Virus record (IMG/VR): IMGVR_UViG_3300037862_000091
Coordinates: 1 to 31,290 of that record
Origin: a virus
Direction: 5' to 3' (one strand)
DNA length: 31,290 nt
In this document: one piece after another, positions 4,816 through 15,334 of the stretch
Layout: the number at the start of each line of letters is the position of its first letter
Position numbering within the stretch: the stretch's first letter is position 1
Notes under the pieces: model-generated
The model's input: the letters and a program-made list of their open reading frames with translations, nothing else
Told to the model about the DNA's origin: nothing
The model's database searches: none
Translations under genes and position numbers: made by a program

Positions 4816-5232
4816 TCATGCCGCCCACCGTGCTTCGGTCGGCGCGAACCCTGCCGCGATCAGTTGCGCGTTGTACACGGCCACCTCACGAGCGAACGCA
4901 GCCGGGTCGTTCCACGCCGCACACATCGAATCCCAGTTCTCAGGCTTGGGCGCTGACGGGATCACGCCCGCCTCCAACTGCTTGAACCTTTCCGGTGTCG
5001 TGTCATTCGACGGTGTACGCGCCGCCCTCACACGCTTCACATTGGTACGCACGTGGGCGGGTGTCAGATAGTCGGTTGTTTCCCGCCGGTGCATTCGCAC
5101 AGCCTCAACCGCATCATCAAAATCAAGATCACCAATCGAATCAACCCACTCGAGAATCACCTCACGGCTTGTCTCCCGGTTATCGCCCAAACGAATCTTT
5201 GCCACCACTGCGGCAACCTGTGCGGCGTTCAC
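4816..5232 (-). CDS. Putative helicase-loader-like replication protein
   Basis: This 138-residue protein starts MNAAQVAAVVAKIRLGDNRETS. The N-terminal 65 residues are a helical domain of the kind seen in phage replicative helicase loaders such as SPP1 G39P. It has a short helix, then VILEWVDSIGDLDFDDAVEAVRMHRRETTDYLTPAHVR. The C-terminal half is Pro/Thr/Asn-rich and less ordered, with a final helix. It overlaps the replication initiator gene by 4 nt (ATGA) and precedes the SSB gene, which is the expected setting for a factor that loads the host DnaB helicase at the phage origin. The assignment is by helical pattern and context. It has no Walker motif, so it is not a DnaC-type ATPase. Confidence 0.6.
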   Translation of the reverse strand: MNAAQVAAVVAKIRLGDNRETSREVILEWVDSIGDLDFDDAVEAVRMHRRETTDYLTPAHVRTNVKRVRAARTPSNDTTPERFKQLEAGVIPSAPKPENWDSMCAAWNDPAAFAREVAVYNAQLIAAGFAPTEARWAA

Positions 5233-6035
5233 GCGATTGCCCGCATGTCTGCTGCCCGGTCGAGTTCTGCCTGCAACTCAAGGCCCATCTGCAATGTTTC
5301 GTGGAACCGGTCAGACTGCGTGGGTTTGGCTGTGCTCGAGCGGGCTACCGGTGGCCCGTCGTTCCACCGTTCACCGTTCAACCACGTTGCCGCGTGCGGG
5401 ATGAACTCGAGCGCGGGCCGGTTGGGGTGTTGCGTGTACGTGTCCACGAATGCCAGCAAATCCAGGGCGGCAATCTTCGTCGTAGCTTTTGCCCACGCTT
5501 TGGCTGCTGCTGCTTTGCCCTCACTTCGCGGCCAGAGAGTCCAGAACTCCGTGAACAAACGATCGTCAGAAACGGACAAGTCTTTTGATCTTGTTAACTC
5601 TGTCTCTGTCTCTGTCTCTGCCATACCTTTGCCATCGGTTTGCCATTCGTTTGCCATAGCACTTGCCATCGGTTTGCCATTCCACCGCTTGTTTGCGCCC
5701 AACTTTCCCGACACTGAACGCTTCGCGGACATCTCTTCACGGTCAGCAGTCGTCTGCTGGTGGGCTGCATAGTCTCGAATCACGTACTCATCCGCCGCTT
5801 CGTCGTGGAACATGAGAGGCCGGTCAGCGTGAGACGCACACAGCTCCACCACAACTTCAGACGCCCACATGCGGTGCATCATCACAGCCGGGATGCGCCC
5901 GTCCAGGTCTTGCATTCTTGAGTAACCGTTCATCTCCACGAACGCCCACTTCGCCTCCACGGTGAGCGGTGCAATTTTCGGGTGCATCCAAAAGTCGTTC
6001 GGGAACGTCATATACAGACGCTTGTCCTTTGCCAT
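5229..6035 (-). CDS. Replication initiator / replisome organiser
   Basis: This 268-residue protein has the architecture of phage replication initiators. The N-terminal winged-helix-like domain (KDKRLYMTFPNDFWMHPKIAPLTVEAKWAF) is found in many phage 'replisome organiser' proteins. A low-complexity middle (KPMASAMANEW, then the repeat ETETETEL) follows. The C-terminal domain (FTEFWTLWPRSEGKAAAAKAWAKA, HAATWLNGERWND) is typical of DnaT/helicase-partner regions. The DNA for the middle carries five iterons, so the protein probably binds the origin inside its own gene, as lambda O does. It starts at the last base of the HNH stop and overlaps the loader gene by 4 nt. Confidence 0.75.
   Translation of the reverse strand: MAKDKRLYMTFPNDFWMHPKIAPLTVEAKWAFVEMNGYSRMQDLDGRIPAVMMHRMWASEVVVELCASHADRPLMFHDEAADEYVIRDYAAHQQTTADREEMSAKRSVSGKLGANKRWNGKPMASAMANEWQTDGKGMAETETETELTRSKDLSVSDDRLFTEFWTLWPRSEGKAAAAKAWAKATTKIAALDLLAFVDTYTQHPNRPALEFIPHAATWLNGERWNDGPPVARSSTAKPTQSDRFHETLQMGLELQAELDRAADMRAIA
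5597..5680. repeat. Iteron array, candidate origin of replication
   Basis: Inside the initiator gene, five copies of TTTGCCAT (one copy CTTGCCAT) start at 5628, 5639, 5650, 5662 and 5673. That is one every 11 bp, so all lie on the same face of the helix. They adjoin a CTCTGT hexamer repeat (about 5597-5620) and an AT-rich stretch (about 5576-5598, TCTTTTGATCTTGTTAACTC) that could melt. Lambda and related phages place their origin iterons in the same position within the initiator gene. The repeats also encode a plausible peptide, so some of the pattern could be coding. Confidence 0.6.
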
Positions 6036-6418
6036 TACGCTGCTACTCCTATTCCTAAGTCGTGCATGATTTCGTGCGCCTCCGCAACGGTGAGTGCGGT
6101 CACTTCACCGGCATCACCGAGCAACACCCACCCGTGTACGGCGTGCTCAACCGGAACCCGTGTCGGGTCGGCGTGCAACGAGACTTTGATTCCCCTACGC
6201 CGCGCCTCACCCTGCAAAACGGGATCGGACTCAATCAGCCCGTTGAGAAGTGAGTCCAACCAAACGACGTTGGACAGTCGGTGTTTGCTTTTGCGGCCAC
6301 CCATGCCGCCCTGACGGTGTTGGGGTACTAGCCGTCCCAGGTCGGTGCCTGTCCACGCGCACAGGTAACCGTCGCGCTGTTTGAGGGCTTTGAGGGTTGC
6401 TTTCGGTGTGGCGGTCAT
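6035..6418 (-). CDS. HNH-type endonuclease
   Basis: This 127-residue protein has the reduced HNH core found in many actinophage genomes. It runs QRDGYLCAWTG, then LVPQHRQGGMGGRKSKHRLSNVV with the catalytic His in PQHR, then NGLIESDP with the distal Asn. The second Cys pair of classical HNH fingers is missing, which is usual for this subgroup. C-terminally the conserved LHADPTRVPV segment is followed by a predicted beta domain. The ATG at 6418 has an AGGAAGG site eight bases upstream. It begins the leftward replication block and diverges from the rightward 75-aa gene across the shared regulatory region 6419-6471. Its role is nicking or cutting DNA, perhaps in replication or as a selfish nuclease. 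Confidence 0.7.
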   Translation of the reverse strand: MTATPKATLKALKQRDGYLCAWTGTDLGRLVPQHRQGGMGGRKSKHRLSNVVWLDSLLNGLIESDPVLQGEARRRGIKVSLHADPTRVPVEHAVHGWVLLGDAGEVTALTVAEAHEIMHDLGIGVAA

Positions 6419-6436
6419 GGTGTTAGCCTTCCTGTA

Positions 6437-6471
6437 TTGACAAGGTGTAATACACCCCGTACTGTGAAGCC
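6437..6471 (+). promoter_or_regulatory. Near-consensus promoter with palindromic operator, leaderless start
   Basis: A perfect -35 box TTGACA (6437-6442) is separated by exactly 17 bp from a -10 box TACTGT (6460-6465). The ATG of the rightward gene begins six bases after the -10 box, so the transcript should start at the A of the ATG (leaderless). The spacer contains the palindrome GGTGTAATACACC (6445-6457), an obvious operator. The downstream ribbon-helix-helix protein is the natural candidate to bind it. The same sites lie in front of the divergent HNH gene and may control both directions. Confidence 0.8.
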
Positions 6472-6699
6472 ATGACAAACCACACCGTTCCCCCAGTCCC
6501 CACCAAAGTCCGCGCCACATACGAAAACCACGGAGTCAACGTGGATGCCGTCACCGCACAAGCCACCGCCGACCAGCAAGCAGGCATCACAATCAACGCG
6601 GGCCGCACCGCACACCCCGGACGCGCATCCGTCCTCTACATGGAGGCGTGGTTGGCTTCCATGAAGGTCAACGGCGTACCCGCCCGGTTCGCCCGCTGA
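6472..6699 (+). CDS. Hypothetical protein, 75 aa, first gene of rightward operon
   Basis: This protein of unknown function starts MTNHTVPPVPTKVRATYE. It is Ala/Thr-rich (VDAVTAQATADQQAGITINAGRTA) with a helical C-terminus (ASVLYMEAWLASMKVNG). There is no membrane segment. The ATG lies six bases after a near-perfect promoter and has no ribosome binding site, consistent with leaderless translation. One base after its stop begins a ribbon-helix-helix gene. A small protein followed by a DNA-binding protein under a palindromic operator is the usual shape of an autoregulated pair, including toxin-antitoxin modules, but no toxin family was recognised. Confidence 0.7.
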   Translation: MTNHTVPPVPTKVRATYENHGVNVDAVTAQATADQQAGITINAGRTAHPGRASVLYMEAWLASMKVNGVPARFAR

Positions 6700-6700
6700 C

Positions 6701-6850
6701 ATGCCCAACCAACCAAAGACACCTGCCCGCACTGTCCGCATCCCAGAGGACGTGTGGGCGGCTGTGCGCGCTCGAGCGGTCGCTGACGGAGTGACGGCAA
6801 CGGCGGTCATGCTGAACGCCCTACGGTCATTCCTGCATTTACCGAAGTGA
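6701..6850 (+). CDS. Ribbon-helix-helix DNA-binding protein, 49 aa
   Basis: This 49-residue protein has the Arc/MetJ/CopG pattern. A short basic tail (NQPKTPAR) leads to a beta strand (TVRIPEDVWAAV), a helix (RARAVADG), the Gly-Val-Thr turn and a second helix (ATAVMLNALRSFL). Such proteins dimerise through the strand and bind palindromic operators. The ATG follows the stop of the 75-aa gene by one base. The last 44 bases are antisense to the end of the methyltransferase gene. It most likely represses its own promoter by binding the palindrome at 6445-6457, which is an inference from context. Confidence 0.75.
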   Translation: MPNQPKTPARTVRIPEDVWAAVRARAVADGVTATAVMLNALRSFLHLPK

Positions 6851-7970
6851 GCAGGTAACGCACTGCCGCCGCCGCCTGCAAAGGCACAACACCATTGCCC
6901 AACGCCCGCAACTGTTCGTTGCGCGTCAGTCCCGCATCAGTGACATGACCTGCATTGAGGCCCATCATCCATTCAACGAAAAGTGCTGAGAGTCGGTGAT
7001 TGCCCTCCCGCCCATCGGGAACGGTGGGCGGTGGGGCTATGCGGCTGGTGGTTGCTTCCCAACGTCGGACTGCGGGTGCGTATTGTCCCCAATCGGTGTC
7101 GGCAACAACTGTTTGATTTCCCGCAGTTGCGGTGCGAACAATGCCCCGTTCAGATTCTTCGGCCCGCCCGTCCCATCCGACACAATCGGCGTGGAAAGCA
7201 GATGCTCCACCTCGTCGGCCAATGTCGGCCCGTGCCCGCCCGCCTTTCGCTTGTCCGGGTGTTGCGACCCGCCGTTGACCGCCAGCTGCGAGGTCGGCGT
7301 TTTCAACAGGTAGTAACCGACTGTCTCGGTGAGCGACCCGAACCCCGACTCCACATGCCTCATGGCTGCCGGTGCCTCCAGACTGAACCCCGCTTCGACC
7401 GCTTGAGGTGTCGGCAAGTTGCGCAAGGACAAAGACTCGGAATCGTCCGTGAGGGGCACCCACGTCGGCAGCCCGTAAACCGCACCAGCTCGCGTCATAC
7501 CCGAGATCGGCCAAGTCTCCAAGAACGGCTCCAAGTGCCCGCAAAGTAGGCTCACCTGATTTTTCTCCCACACACCACGTACACGGTTCCATGTCGCTGT
7601 TCGCTGTTGCACTGAGCAACCCCCTCACGTTTTCAATGACCACAAGTTGCGGACGCAACACGTCAATGGCGCGGGCAAACTCTGACCACAACCCCGACCG
7701 TGTGCCCTCAGACATTCCCGCCCGCCGGCCAGCCAACGACACGTCCTGACACGGAAAGCCGCCCGTCAGAATGTCCACCGGTTCAACCGCCGACCAATCA
7801 ACCGCCGTCACGTCGCCATAGTTCGGCACGTCCGGCCAGTGATAATCAAGAATCTTCGACGGTGCTTTGTCCCACTCAACATGCCAGGCAACGTCTGCAT
7901 CCAGGACACTCACCACGCCCATGTCCAAACCGCCGTAGCCGCTGAACAGTGAACCAATACGGGCCGTCAT
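6807..7970 (-). CDS. DNA cytosine-5 methyltransferase
   Basis: This 387-residue protein has the motif order of C5-cytosine methyltransferases. Motif I is GSLFSGYGGLDMG (residues 6-18), the S-adenosylmethionine site. Motif IV is GGFPCQDVS with catalytic Cys74. Motif VI is ENVRG (113-117), and motif VIII lies around GAPHGRFRVF (171-180). After a variable target-recognition region come motif IX-like LSALFVEWMMG and motif X LGNGVVPLQAA near the C-terminus. It would methylate cytosines in a short site to protect phage DNA from host restriction. No partner endonuclease lies beside it, so it is probably an orphan. Its start overlaps the upstream 89-aa gene by 4 nt. The variable region is also open in a second frame (7037-7612). 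Confidence 0.93.
   Translation of the reverse strand: MTARIGSLFSGYGGLDMGVVSVLDADVAWHVEWDKAPSKILDYHWPDVPNYGDVTAVDWSAVEPVDILTGGFPCQDVSLAGRRAGMSEGTRSGLWSEFARAIDVLRPQLVVIENVRGLLSATANSDMEPCTWCVGEKSGEPTLRALGAVLGDLADLGYDASWCGLRAADVGAPHGRFRVFVLAQLADTSSGRSGVQSGGTGSHEACGVGVRVAHRDSRLLPVENADLAAGGQRRVATPGQAKGGRARADIGRRGGASAFHADCVGWDGRAEESERGIVRTATAGNQTVVADTDWGQYAPAVRRWEATTSRIAPPPTVPDGREGNHRLSALFVEWMMGLNAGHVTDAGLTRNEQLRALGNGVVPLQAAAAVRYLLTSVNAGMTVGRSA
7037..7612 (-). other. Long overprinted +1 reading frame inside the methyltransferase gene
   Basis: This 191-codon GTG-started frame lies in the +1 frame of the methyltransferase, over its target-recognition region. Its translation is not random. It contains EPFLETWPISGMTRAGAVYG, then LPTWVPLT and repeated L-P-T-P units, phrases that occur as genuine sequence in many C5-methyltransferases. 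Both frames therefore look methyltransferase-like over the same DNA. It may be a second product, a relic of an ancestral frame switch, or a by-product of conserved sequence. No ribosome binding site was seen. Confidence 0.35.
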
Positions 7971-10430: not shown

Positions 10431-10750
10431 GAGGTCACCGTCCACACGCGAGCGTTACGCCCCGATGGGGTGCGCTTCAACGCGCCGTCCACAATTTGCA
10501 CGCGGCCCTGCTCTTGCAGTTCCTTCAACGCGGTTCGAACGCGGGAGCTGGAGAAGAACCCAGCCAACGCCGCCTCAATTTCGAACGCGGCCAACTGGTG
10601 CCGTTTGTCGAAACAACGCAACACCCACATTTGCGAATCGCACACGTTGTTGCTGTCGGCGGCTTGGTGGGAGGTGAGTGGATCGGTTTTGCGGGTGCGT
10701 GCCGTGTCGTCCGGGAGGATCATCGGCGGTAAGGTGTTGAGTACGGGCAT
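10427..10750 (-). CDS. Winged-helix DNA-binding protein
   Basis: This 107-residue protein starts MPVLNTLPPMILPDDTAR. It contains the actinophage signature RKTDPLTSHQAADSNN followed by a winged-helix domain: helix (SQMWVLRCFDKRHQ), helix, recognition helix (SSSRVRTALKELQEQGRV) and wing (VQIVDGALKRTPSGRNARVWTV). Such proteins are common next to phage early genes and are presumed regulators or replication accessory proteins. The ATG at 10750 is preferred because AAAGG lies seven bases upstream. An in-frame ATG at 10801, which overlaps the previous stop by 4 nt, would add 17 residues and place the hairpin at 10774-10795 inside the coding sequence. Confidence 0.7.
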   Translation of the reverse strand: MPVLNTLPPMILPDDTARTRKTDPLTSHQAADSNNVCDSQMWVLRCFDKRHQLAAFEIEAALAGFFSSSRVRTALKELQEQGRVQIVDGALKRTPSGRNARVWTVTS

Positions 10751-13336: not shown

Positions 13337-14340
13337 GCGGGTGGCCCTTGTTGGAAGAAGGCTAGGAGGGCGGCTAGGAGGGCGACGAGGGCGGCAATGA
13401 TGATGGCGGCGGGGTTGGGTTTGCCTGCTGGTGTTTCGTCGCCTTGCGCCGTTTCGGTCGGCGTTTCTAGTTTTGTGGGCACTTCGACCGGTACGAGAAT
13501 TGGGGTGACCGGTTCGGGTTCGGTGGGCGGTTCGACCGGCTCGGGTATCACGGGGGGCGCGGGCGGGTCGGGTTCGACCACCGGCGGTTGGACCTCCGGG
13601 GGTGATACGACCACGGGGGGTGATACGACCGCGGGGGGTGTCGGCACGAACGGCACCGGTGTTGCGTCCGTCAATCCTAAAACGGATTGACTGGTGAACC
13701 CACCCGACCAATACCAAAGACCGTTCACGCCCTGAAACCACAGTCGGTTGCCTTCCACAGACGCACCGGCAGTGGTGAACGCTTGCATGGTCACAGCAGT
13801 GTTGCGAAACGCAAGAGTGGCGGTGCCGCCAGCTTGTGGCACTGTGCGCCCGTTGGCACCATTCACGCCGGTCAAGCGATCGCGCACGCCGAGCGCGGGG
13901 GTGGGGGCCGGTGGTGCCGCAATGACCGAAACGCCTGGAAGGTCTTGAGTGAAGTATGGGCGTGGGTCAACCCGGTTGCCGTCGATGTACAACTCGAAGT
14001 GCAGGTGGATGCCGTTTGCGGTGCCCGTGTCACCCATCACTTGCACTTGCGTTGACGCGTCCACGATCTGCCCGACGCTTACCCGGATGCCGTTGTTGGG
14101 GGCGTGGTTGTACGTGGTGAAAGCTCGCGTGGTGTGTGCAATGGCAACCCGGTTGCCCCAACCACGATTGAAGCCAGCATTGTTCGCCACTTCAATGACA
14201 CGCCCTGGTGCGGCGGCGACGACACGACGGGTGCCTGCTGGGTCACGGTTGAACCATCCCCAGTCGATGCCGTTGTGGACGCCGCCCGGTTTAAAGGGTT
14301 GCGATTCCCAACCCCACGGTGCCGGTGTTGTGAGTTTCAC
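13333..14340 (-). CDS. M23 endopeptidase lysin with C-terminal membrane anchor
   Basis: This 335-residue protein starts with GTG, with GGAGG five bases upstream, and is read MKLTTPAPWGWESQPF. The N-terminal 130 residues form a LytM/M23 zinc peptidase: VHNGIDWG (His22, Asp26), YNHA (His79) and GIHLHFE (His112, His114). It should cut peptide cross-links of peptidoglycan. A middle region of about 75 residues (LTGVNGANGRTVPQ, LWFQGVNGLWYWSG) looks like an SH3-type wall-binding domain. It is followed by a Pro/Val/Glu-rich linker of about 90 residues and a last hydrophobic segment (AAIIIAALVALLAALLAFF, about 311-329). There is no N-terminal signal peptide. The C-terminal anchor is unusual for a lysin. 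The protein heads the lysis cassette; virion-associated use is an alternative. Confidence 0.8.
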   Translation of the reverse strand: MKLTTPAPWGWESQPFKPGGVHNGIDWGWFNRDPAGTRRVVAAAPGRVIEVANNAGFNRGWGNRVAIAHTTRAFTTYNHAPNNGIRVSVGQIVDASTQVQVMGDTGTANGIHLHFELYIDGNRVDPRPYFTQDLPGVSVIAAPPAPTPALGVRDRLTGVNGANGRTVPQAGGTATLAFRNTAVTMQAFTTAGASVEGNRLWFQGVNGLWYWSGGFTSQSVLGLTDATPVPFVPTPPAVVSPPVVVSPPEVQPPVVEPDPPAPPVIPEPVEPPTEPEPVTPILVPVEVPTKLETPTETAQGDETPAGKPNPAAIIIAALVALLAALLAFFQQGPPA

Positions 14341-14548: not shown

Positions 14549-15334
14549 TCAAAGTTTTATGATGTAGTTCAGCACCAGGTAGGGCTGCAGATTGTTGTGG
14601 GCAGCGTTGCCGCCCGTGTTTTGGTTCGTGGCCGTCGTCTCGTTGTTCGATGCGGTAGCGGCTTGGTTCGTGGCCCTGGTGGCCTGAGCGCGCCCGCCGG
14701 GTAGGTTGTAGCCGAAGTCTCCGTTCGAGTTTGACGTGACGGACGGCCCTAGGTTTGCAGAGCCACCATTCGACCCAGCGAGGACGTGCGTGTGAACGTC
14801 CTGCGTGTGGTTGTGGCTGTTCTGCGAGTGATTGTGACTGTTCTGGGTGTGGGTGTGTGTAGGCATCTCGGCAGCGGTGAGCGTGTGAGTTTTGGCGCCC
14901 CCGGTTTCGCCGAGGGTGTCGAACTCGTTTTGGCCTGCATCCCGTCCAACCGGGGCGCGTCCGCGCATATCAGGAATGTTGAAAGTAGTTGACCCGTTGC
15001 CCGCACCGTAAGTTGTCCCAATCGCGCTGAAAAGTTGCGCAAAAGTGGAACGTGCTATTGCCGCACCGTCGCACATCAACCATCCCGAGGGGGCAGTGGC
15101 GCGAGCCGTCATTTCCACATTGCCGGACGGTGCTCCGCCCGACGCCGACCCCCCCGCCACGCCATGAATAACTAAACGCCGCTCCGACAGTTCACCCCGC
15201 ACACGCGCGCCCACGACCACAGATGCCGTGTCAATCAAACTGTCGGGCGTGAACGTCAACGCCGCCGTGTCACCATCCAAACGCACCCGCAAAGGACTTA
15301 CCGCAGTCACCGTCGCCCACACAAAAGCAGTCAC
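14549..15334 (-). CDS. Tail fibre with phage collar domain
   Basis: This 261-residue protein starts with GTG. Residues 1-65 form a small beta domain (FVWATVTAVSPLRVRLDGD) resembling an OB fold at the tail tip. Residues about 80-130 are a phage tail collar domain: APSGWLMCDGAAI, STFAQLFSAIGTTYG, TFNIPDMRGRAPVG. The C-terminal part carries repeated His pairs (HTHTQNSHNHSQNSHNHTQ and HTH), the metal-binding H-x-H pattern of trimeric fibre tips. It ends NNLQPYLVLNYIIKL, typical of this family. It should form the trimeric tip that contacts the host surface. It overlaps the hub gene by 4 nt (GTGA) and is the last structural gene. Confidence 0.85.
   Translation of the reverse strand: MTAFVWATVTAVSPLRVRLDGDTAALTFTPDSLIDTASVVVGARVRGELSERRLVIHGVAGGSASGGAPSGNVEMTARATAPSGWLMCDGAAIARSTFAQLFSAIGTTYGAGNGSTTFNIPDMRGRAPVGRDAGQNEFDTLGETGGAKTHTLTAAEMPTHTHTQNSHNHSQNSHNHTQDVHTHVLAGSNGGSANLGPSVTSNSNGDFGYNLPGGRAQATRATNQAATASNNETTATNQNTGGNAAHNNLQPYLVLNYIIKL

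Follow-up and report, generated by a model that had tools for sequence, protein, structure and literature searches.

Iteron plasmids such as RK2, pSC101 and their relatives carry direct repeats for the initiator beside the region that is opened, encode winged-helix-like initiators, and usually have their origin outside the rep gene. In phage lambda, by comparison, the origin lies within the initiator gene O, where four annotated 18-bp iterons (described as 19-bp near-perfect inverted repeats; PMC5043065) are spaced 20-24 bp apart; when O binds, an adjoining A+T-rich region of 40 bp opens and its strands are contacted by O and P (PMC5043065). In the bacterial oriC, with its DnaA-boxes and DnaA-trios, and in the DnaD Recognition Element (DRE) of Bacillus subtilis, a periodic single-strand motif lies to one side of the double-strand initiator sites and is used for opening and for strand-specific helicase loading (PMC8287927, PMC10201434), and B. 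subtilis DnaD reads one strand of the origin once it is open (PMC10201434). In RepA-dependent mycobacteriophage prophages, an analogy with lambda has led to an origin being suspected inside repA or immediately upstream of it, with no repeated motifs identified (PMC7157519). Here, a stretch of viral DNA of 31,290 nucleotides (IMG/VR record IMGVR_UViG_3300037862_000091, positions 1 to 31,290; hereafter the window) is described, in which the region 5576-5680 is very probably a replication origin located inside its own initiator gene. This candidate is like that of the mycobacteriophages in its position at or within the initiator gene, and differs in that repeats have been identified. An origin of two parts, with initiator-bound iterons and an AGA-hexad tract for opening or loading, is the probable organisation. 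The elements concerned are the following.

5229-6035, minus strand: replication initiator gene, 268 residues
5757-6035, minus strand: part coding for the predicted winged-helix-like N-terminal domain, about residues 1-93
5618-5680, minus strand: iteron array, five exact copies of ATGGCAA and a degenerate sixth
5598-5620, minus strand: AGA-hexad tract, (GAGACA)n on the sense strand and CTCTGT on the plus strand, coding for ETETETE
5586-5657, minus strand: part coding for the predicted disordered linker, residues 127-150
5576-5597, no strand assigned: A+T-rich stretch, candidate opening region

The iteron array was identified by direct reading of the sequence and by cluster statistics. The exact motif TTGCCAT starts at positions 5629, 5640, 5651, 5663 and 5674, with spacings of 11, 11, 12 and 11 bp (as ATGGCAA on the minus strand, 5674-5680, 5663-5669, 5651-5657, 5640-5646 and 5629-5635), and a degenerate sixth copy, CTGCCAT (5618-5624), holds the 11-bp phase. 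Five copies within 60 bp form the largest cluster of any 7-mer and the sole cluster of this kind in the window, and more than three copies were never reached in 200 first-order Markov resamples; in the window as a whole ATGGCAA occurs 11 times, a number reached by none of 100 shuffles. Because the mostly 11-bp spacing puts successive copies in different reading frames, the iteron is not a peptide repeat. The array is directly followed on the sense strand by the tract, which comprises three full copies and one partial copy of CTCTGT (5598-5620) and contains a run of four AGA at a period of six bases (AGA/6). The A+T-rich stretch, which adjoins on the 3' side, has 73% A+T compared with a window mean of 41%, a value found in only 0.05% of 22-bp windows. 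An earlier account made from the DNA letters (the sequence-only reading) had described five iterons every 11 bp next to a CTCTGT repeat and an AT-rich stretch, all inside the gene of a likely initiator; the five copies, both adjoining elements and the initiator gene are borne out, but the regularity is not complete, since one spacing is 12 bp and only four of the five copies are TTTGCCAT.

The assignment of the gene comes from its best PHROG matches, which are replication initiation proteins (PHROG 270 and 9474; best E values 1.2e-17 and 2.7e-17), and from relatives in IMG/VR and in Gordonia, Mycobacterium, Brevibacterium and other actinophages. Identity to the actinophage relatives is about 24-40% across the matched stretch; initiator annotations exist for some of them, and several have a DnaB-like helicase as their next gene. 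A Pfam scan of the protein gave no match. An AlphaFold2 model (mean predicted local distance difference test score, pLDDT, of 85) consists of a winged-helix-like N-terminal domain with pLDDT above 90 for most residues, a disordered linker with pLDDT below 50, and a C-terminal part made of helices. In VIA-align, the four best structural matches are N-terminal domains of plasmid Rep proteins, with middling Z scores of 6.3-6.8, so that the likeness of the predicted domain to these is only suggestive; Foldseek gave nothing at E <0.001, and a sequence search of the PDB gave no match. According to the model, the iterons and the tract are coded largely by the predicted disordered linker, and such a linker may be a place where cis-acting DNA sequence can be fixed at low cost to the protein.

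The layout is shared with lambda, in that the initiator sites lie within the initiator gene, an A+T-rich stretch is found on their 3' side and a possible loader gene comes next. The repeats themselves are of another type, with a 7-bp core in direct orientation at 11-12 bp as opposed to the long, widely spaced iterons of lambda, and lambda has no tract of the AGA/6 or CTCTGT type. The initiator-family PHROGs matched by the window protein (270, 9474, 3926 and 2447) include none named O-like, and the fold search was weak. The sequence-only reading had held that the locus mirrors lambda ori; this appears to be true of an origin in the initiator gene with an adjoining A+T-rich stretch, but not of the iteron type, the PHROG families or the tract, and the likeness would be one of layout and not of membership. 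With iteron plasmids the window shares direct repeats beside a candidate opening region and a predicted winged-helix-like initiator, whereas all of its origin elements are coding sequence.

Alignment with related phages, which had been suggested as a check on whether the iterons are kept when the protein varies, gave a positive answer in L002, a relative about 50% identical: GGCAA-type repeats occur 9-12 bp apart and end in the common GGCAGAGACAGAG, while the peptide at the repeats is altered from NGKPMASAMANEWQTDGKGMAE to QLQATGANVGQVPGQIRAE. The 99% identical relative L001 differs at 11 bases, none of them within gene positions 322-461 (iterons, tract and A+T-rich stretch), although so small a number of substitutions makes this a weak test of conservation. 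When counts were pooled over 64 tract-bearing initiator regions, mostly of the actinophage-type and Firmicutes sets, 5-mers upstream of the tract were found to recur at a lag of 11 (43.6 per 1000) and 12 (24.4 per 1000), and also at 24 and 34, whereas the 5' portion of these genes gave about 1 (0.9) per 1000 at the lags of 11 and 12. Helically phased 11-12-bp repeats are present at the equivalent place both in relatives and in unrelated initiators, and the retention of iterons while the protein changes is as expected of an origin.

Repeats bound by plasmid initiators can also act in autoregulation, and the repeats described here could in principle be an operator for the initiator, or a signal at the RNA level, and not part of an origin. 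This is highly improbable, as they lie 350-440 bp inside the gene and not at a promoter, are adjoined by an A+T-rich stretch, and recur at the equivalent place across families. Repeats of other kinds were also seen in initiator genes: in Arthrobacter phage Cupello (L009, gene 2114-2881), GAACCGTC repeats occur at 11, 11 and 13 bp without an AGA tract, and in the RepO gene of Pontimonas phage phiPsal1 (L010, 2096-2902), four copies of TTCCACTG occur at exactly 15 bp, in frame.

The second element, the AGA-hexad tract, was mentioned in the sequence-only reading as a side detail (CTCTGT), yet in comparisons of sequence it proved to be the part with the wider conservation. At least 120 stretches were obtained when IMG/VR was scanned for exact matches to the 20-mer CAGAGACAGAGACAGAGACA, and most of the 80 that were examined lie at a similar place in initiator-like open reading frames (ORFs) and read ETETETE. 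With the N-terminal parts truncated before the tract, so that the tract itself cannot cause the matches, 50 of 72 matched one replication-protein PHROG and others matched further initiator families. The synonymous control (GAGACC)n gave 97 stretches in IMG/VR, and among the 25 PHROG families listed for their ORFs there was no replication family. Among 55 relatives gathered through a protein motif of the N-terminal part, the tract variously takes the forms CAGAGA, CAGAGT (ESES) and CAGATA (TDTD), from which it was predicted that (ATAGAN)n would be found in Firmicutes-type initiators. This prediction was borne out, as 22-24 of 75 ORFs with (ATAGAN)n match replisome-organizer or DnaD-like families; with the synonymous control (ATTGAN)n, 54 stretches were found and no replication family was matched by more than 2 of 50 ORFs, a control that is imperfectly clean in that a few of the 50 do match such families. 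The tract is also read in another frame in a few initiator-like ORFs, as RDRDRD in L037, L039 and L041 and as RDRD in ATAGAN matches.

The general form of the tract was taken from Bacilli and Clostridia prophage initiators collected by PHROG profile, where phrog_678 and phrog_270 gave many weak matches and only the stronger ones were used. In these genes, what stays constant is AGA every six bases, and the base before it may be T, A, G or C. When 768 combinations (64 trinucleotides at periods 4-15) were scored as runs of at least four, AGA/6 ranked first separately in Bacilli (14 of 24), Clostridia (15 of 20) and actinophage-type initiators (25 of 45), with combined p values from within-gene synonymous shuffles of 3e-10, 4e-11 and 9e-11, respectively. 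Such runs are present in 62 of 101 initiator ORFs of these three sets, whereas only 1 of the 529 neighbouring ORFs at these loci has one, both counts including redundant sequences. While the AGA/6 form was first recognised on part of the test data, namely the Bacilli and Clostridia genes, the shuffle and neighbouring-ORF controls are independent of that choice. A tract free of T was tried as the invariant and rejected, since Firmicutes tracts contain 15% T.

Codon usage points in the same direction. In stretches defined by the protein alone, as [X][D/E] four or more times, threonine is coded by ACA in 55 of 56 cases in the actinophage type (24% elsewhere in the same genes) and isoleucine by ATA in 62 of 64 cases in Firmicutes (35% elsewhere), with p values down to 6e-31; this fixation beyond the need of the peptide is a result for the groups and not for the window gene alone. 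Because of the near-fixed codons, the occasional other frames and the synonymous controls, selection of the tract as nucleic acid rather than as protein is well supported, and selection acting at the level of the mRNA would be compatible with the same evidence. A merely flexible acidic linker (ETETETE, IDIDIE), grown by 6-bp slippage and with uniform codons as a by-product, would suit the predicted disorder of the region and the additional GAGACA unit that L001 carries relative to the window gene, which indicates that slippage happens, and the iterons may be real even in that case. It is nonetheless a very unlikely account, given that the codons are constant across lineages at 25-40% protein identity, that Firmicutes tracts are not simple repeats, with AGA retained amid mixed ATA, AAA and TTA codons, and that synonymous repeats lack the linkage to initiators and other frames occur. 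An AGA-hexad signal in the initiator genes of viruses of several bacterial groups is apparently undescribed; no description was found in the literature, in a search of open-licence papers only, and so this is weak evidence of absence.

Several other periodic repeats were observed in initiator-like genes. In L003, GGAACAGG repeats with an 8-bp period (about 1890-2290) stand at the position expected for the CAGAGA tract, and its protein is 82% identical over residues 160-268 in the C-terminal part and different upstream; L003 may be a recombined initiator that has a tract of another type. Initiator-like genes of L273, L276, L278, L293, L299 and L302 and of Octadecabacter virus DB2 (L015:2036-2848) contain AACCAG repeats, translated as NQNQNQ or PEPEPE; ORFs with this repeat are enriched for primosomal proteins, one primosomal PHROG being matched by about 21 of the 76, but structural EPEPEP proteins are mixed in, and the repeats may be an equivalent tract in phages of Proteobacteria. 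In the alphaproteobacterial prophage initiator L802, AATGAN repeats (NDNENEND) of period 6 occur at the tract position, with TGA and not AGA as the constant part.

The base before AGA bears on a possible role in priming. CAGA is dominant in the actinophage type, and in Firmicutes TAGA (95) is commonest, followed by AAGA (76), with GAGA also present. The template start of DnaG primase is CTG in Escherichia coli and CTA in Staphylococcus aureus, B. subtilis, B. anthracis and Geobacillus stearothermophilus (PMC5429622), and the strand opposite CAGAGA has CTG every 6 nucleotides, while that opposite TAGA has CTA. The tract might then be a series of sites at which the primase of the host starts, which would give the origin first-primer sites of its own, suited to that host, and the (ATAGAN)n prediction, which was borne out, agrees with this. 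However, AAGA nearly equals TAGA in Firmicutes and GAGA occurs, the constant part is AGA and not YAG, and the C/T difference may reflect base composition only; a primase array is distinctly unlikely on these grounds. For Actinobacteria, no primase specificity was found. As an invariant, the YAG array was partly supported by the ATAGAN scan and then weakened by the common AAGA and GAGA, and a generic YAGANN scan of genome contigs was swamped by ordinary EP/EA-type repeats.

Another alternative is an R-loop, in which the purine-rich sense strand (81-83% A+G in the tracts) would favour a stable RNA-DNA hybrid, such that the origin is opened by transcription of the initiator gene, which may also provide a primer. 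The tract is always 3' of the iterons in the direction of transcription, and transcription is required at lambda ori (PMC5043065). On the other hand, the effect in lambda has been ascribed to supercoiling, with a promoter downstream of ori being sufficient (PMC5043065), and purine content alone leaves the exact 6-base period of AGA and the retained ACA and ATA unexplained, which makes an R-loop unlikely.

Starting from the observed repeats, their conservation and the fixed codons, we propose a two-part origin with the following steps of binding, opening, loading and strand reading. The winged-helix-like domain of the initiator would bind the 11-12-bp iterons cooperatively on one face of the DNA, as their phasing and position and the predicted fold suggest. 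This binding would strain open the segment on the 3' side, namely the (CAGAGA)n tract and then the A+T-rich stretch, and the opened tract would serve as a strand-specific single-stranded DNA site in which AGA (sense strand) or TCT (opposite strand) recurs every 6 nucleotides. By gripping the tract, the initiator or a helicase loader would keep the bubble open and position the host helicase, with the product of the next gene perhaps aiding this placement. That the tract is a specific single-strand site for strand-specific opening or helicase loading is a plausible suggestion, put forward with somewhat less than even confidence.

The arrangement proposed, double-strand initiator sites and then a periodic single-strand motif on one side, is that of oriC and the DRE, and many tract-bearing Firmicutes-type initiators match DnaD-like PHROGs. 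DnaA-trios, however, have a period of 3, whereas the window tract has a period of 6 with AGA (no search for DnaA-boxes was made), and the DRE needs at least two TnnT on one strand, whereas the CTCTGT strand of the window, the tract for which this was read, has T at every second base and no TnnT. By analogy, the tract could be a counterpart of a DnaD-type single-strand site, and would be neither a DnaA-trio array nor a TnnT element. Tentatively, AGA (or TCT opposite) at a 6-nucleotide period could be a shared opening or helicase-loading signal in phages of Actinobacteria and Firmicutes, and probably others. Such a signal may further be the phage equivalent of the DnaA-trio/DRE pair, kept across protein families and sometimes in other frames, an analogy that is reasonable but falls short of being probable.

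Several points weigh against this interpretation. Gene by gene, upstream iterons reach p <0.05 in a minority only, while the pooled signal is strong. A run of four is absent from about 40% of the initiator ORFs tested, no enrichment of AGA/6 was found in the Gamma/Alpha initiator set with the families used, and the tract is absent from lambda, TP901-1 rep and r1t ORF11; the AGA/6 tract is therefore common but not universal, and is not needed by every such origin. GC skew, also suggested as a check with the sequence-only reading, was uninformative, showing no switch near 5.6 kb, where a gene order on one strand would mask it. The origin and the binding of the initiator are, moreover, read from sequence and predicted structure.

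Two genes follow the initiator.

4816-5232, minus strand: next gene, possible helicase-loader-like protein, 138 residues
4362-4757, minus strand: gene of 131 residues, named single-stranded DNA-binding protein (SSB) in the sequence-only reading, identity unconfirmed

The 138-residue protein shares 31% identity over 70 residues with the product of a gene annotated as helicase loader in Microbacterium phage MenE and matches PHROGs of unknown function, which weakly supports a role in helicase loading. Of the earlier naming of the pair as helicase-loader-like and SSB genes, the former has this modest support, whereas the 131-residue product gave no match in either the Pfam or the PHROG scan. Directly before the initiator, on the minus strand, is an HNH endonuclease-like gene (6035-6520; PHROG 740, 2.7e-22), and a DNA methyltransferase lies nearby on the same strand (6807-7970; PHROG 363, 4.2e-72). 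Elsewhere in the window, a tRNA-Ser with anticodon CGA is predicted on the minus strand (10481-10573), and short tandem repeats with units of 12, 18 and 21 bp are found at 13360-13384, 13598-13640 and 14801-14857.

Most phage origins are unmapped. The combination of an iteron array and an AGA-hexad tract can be recognised from sequence alone, and this signature would point to candidate origins in many temperate phages that infect Actinobacteria and Firmicutes. Should the tract act as a strand-specific loading site, its two-codon unit, which allows recoding with the peptide unchanged, would provide a simple system for studying how a helicase is placed on one strand. The locus also shows that a linker predicted to be disordered is able to store cis-acting DNA.
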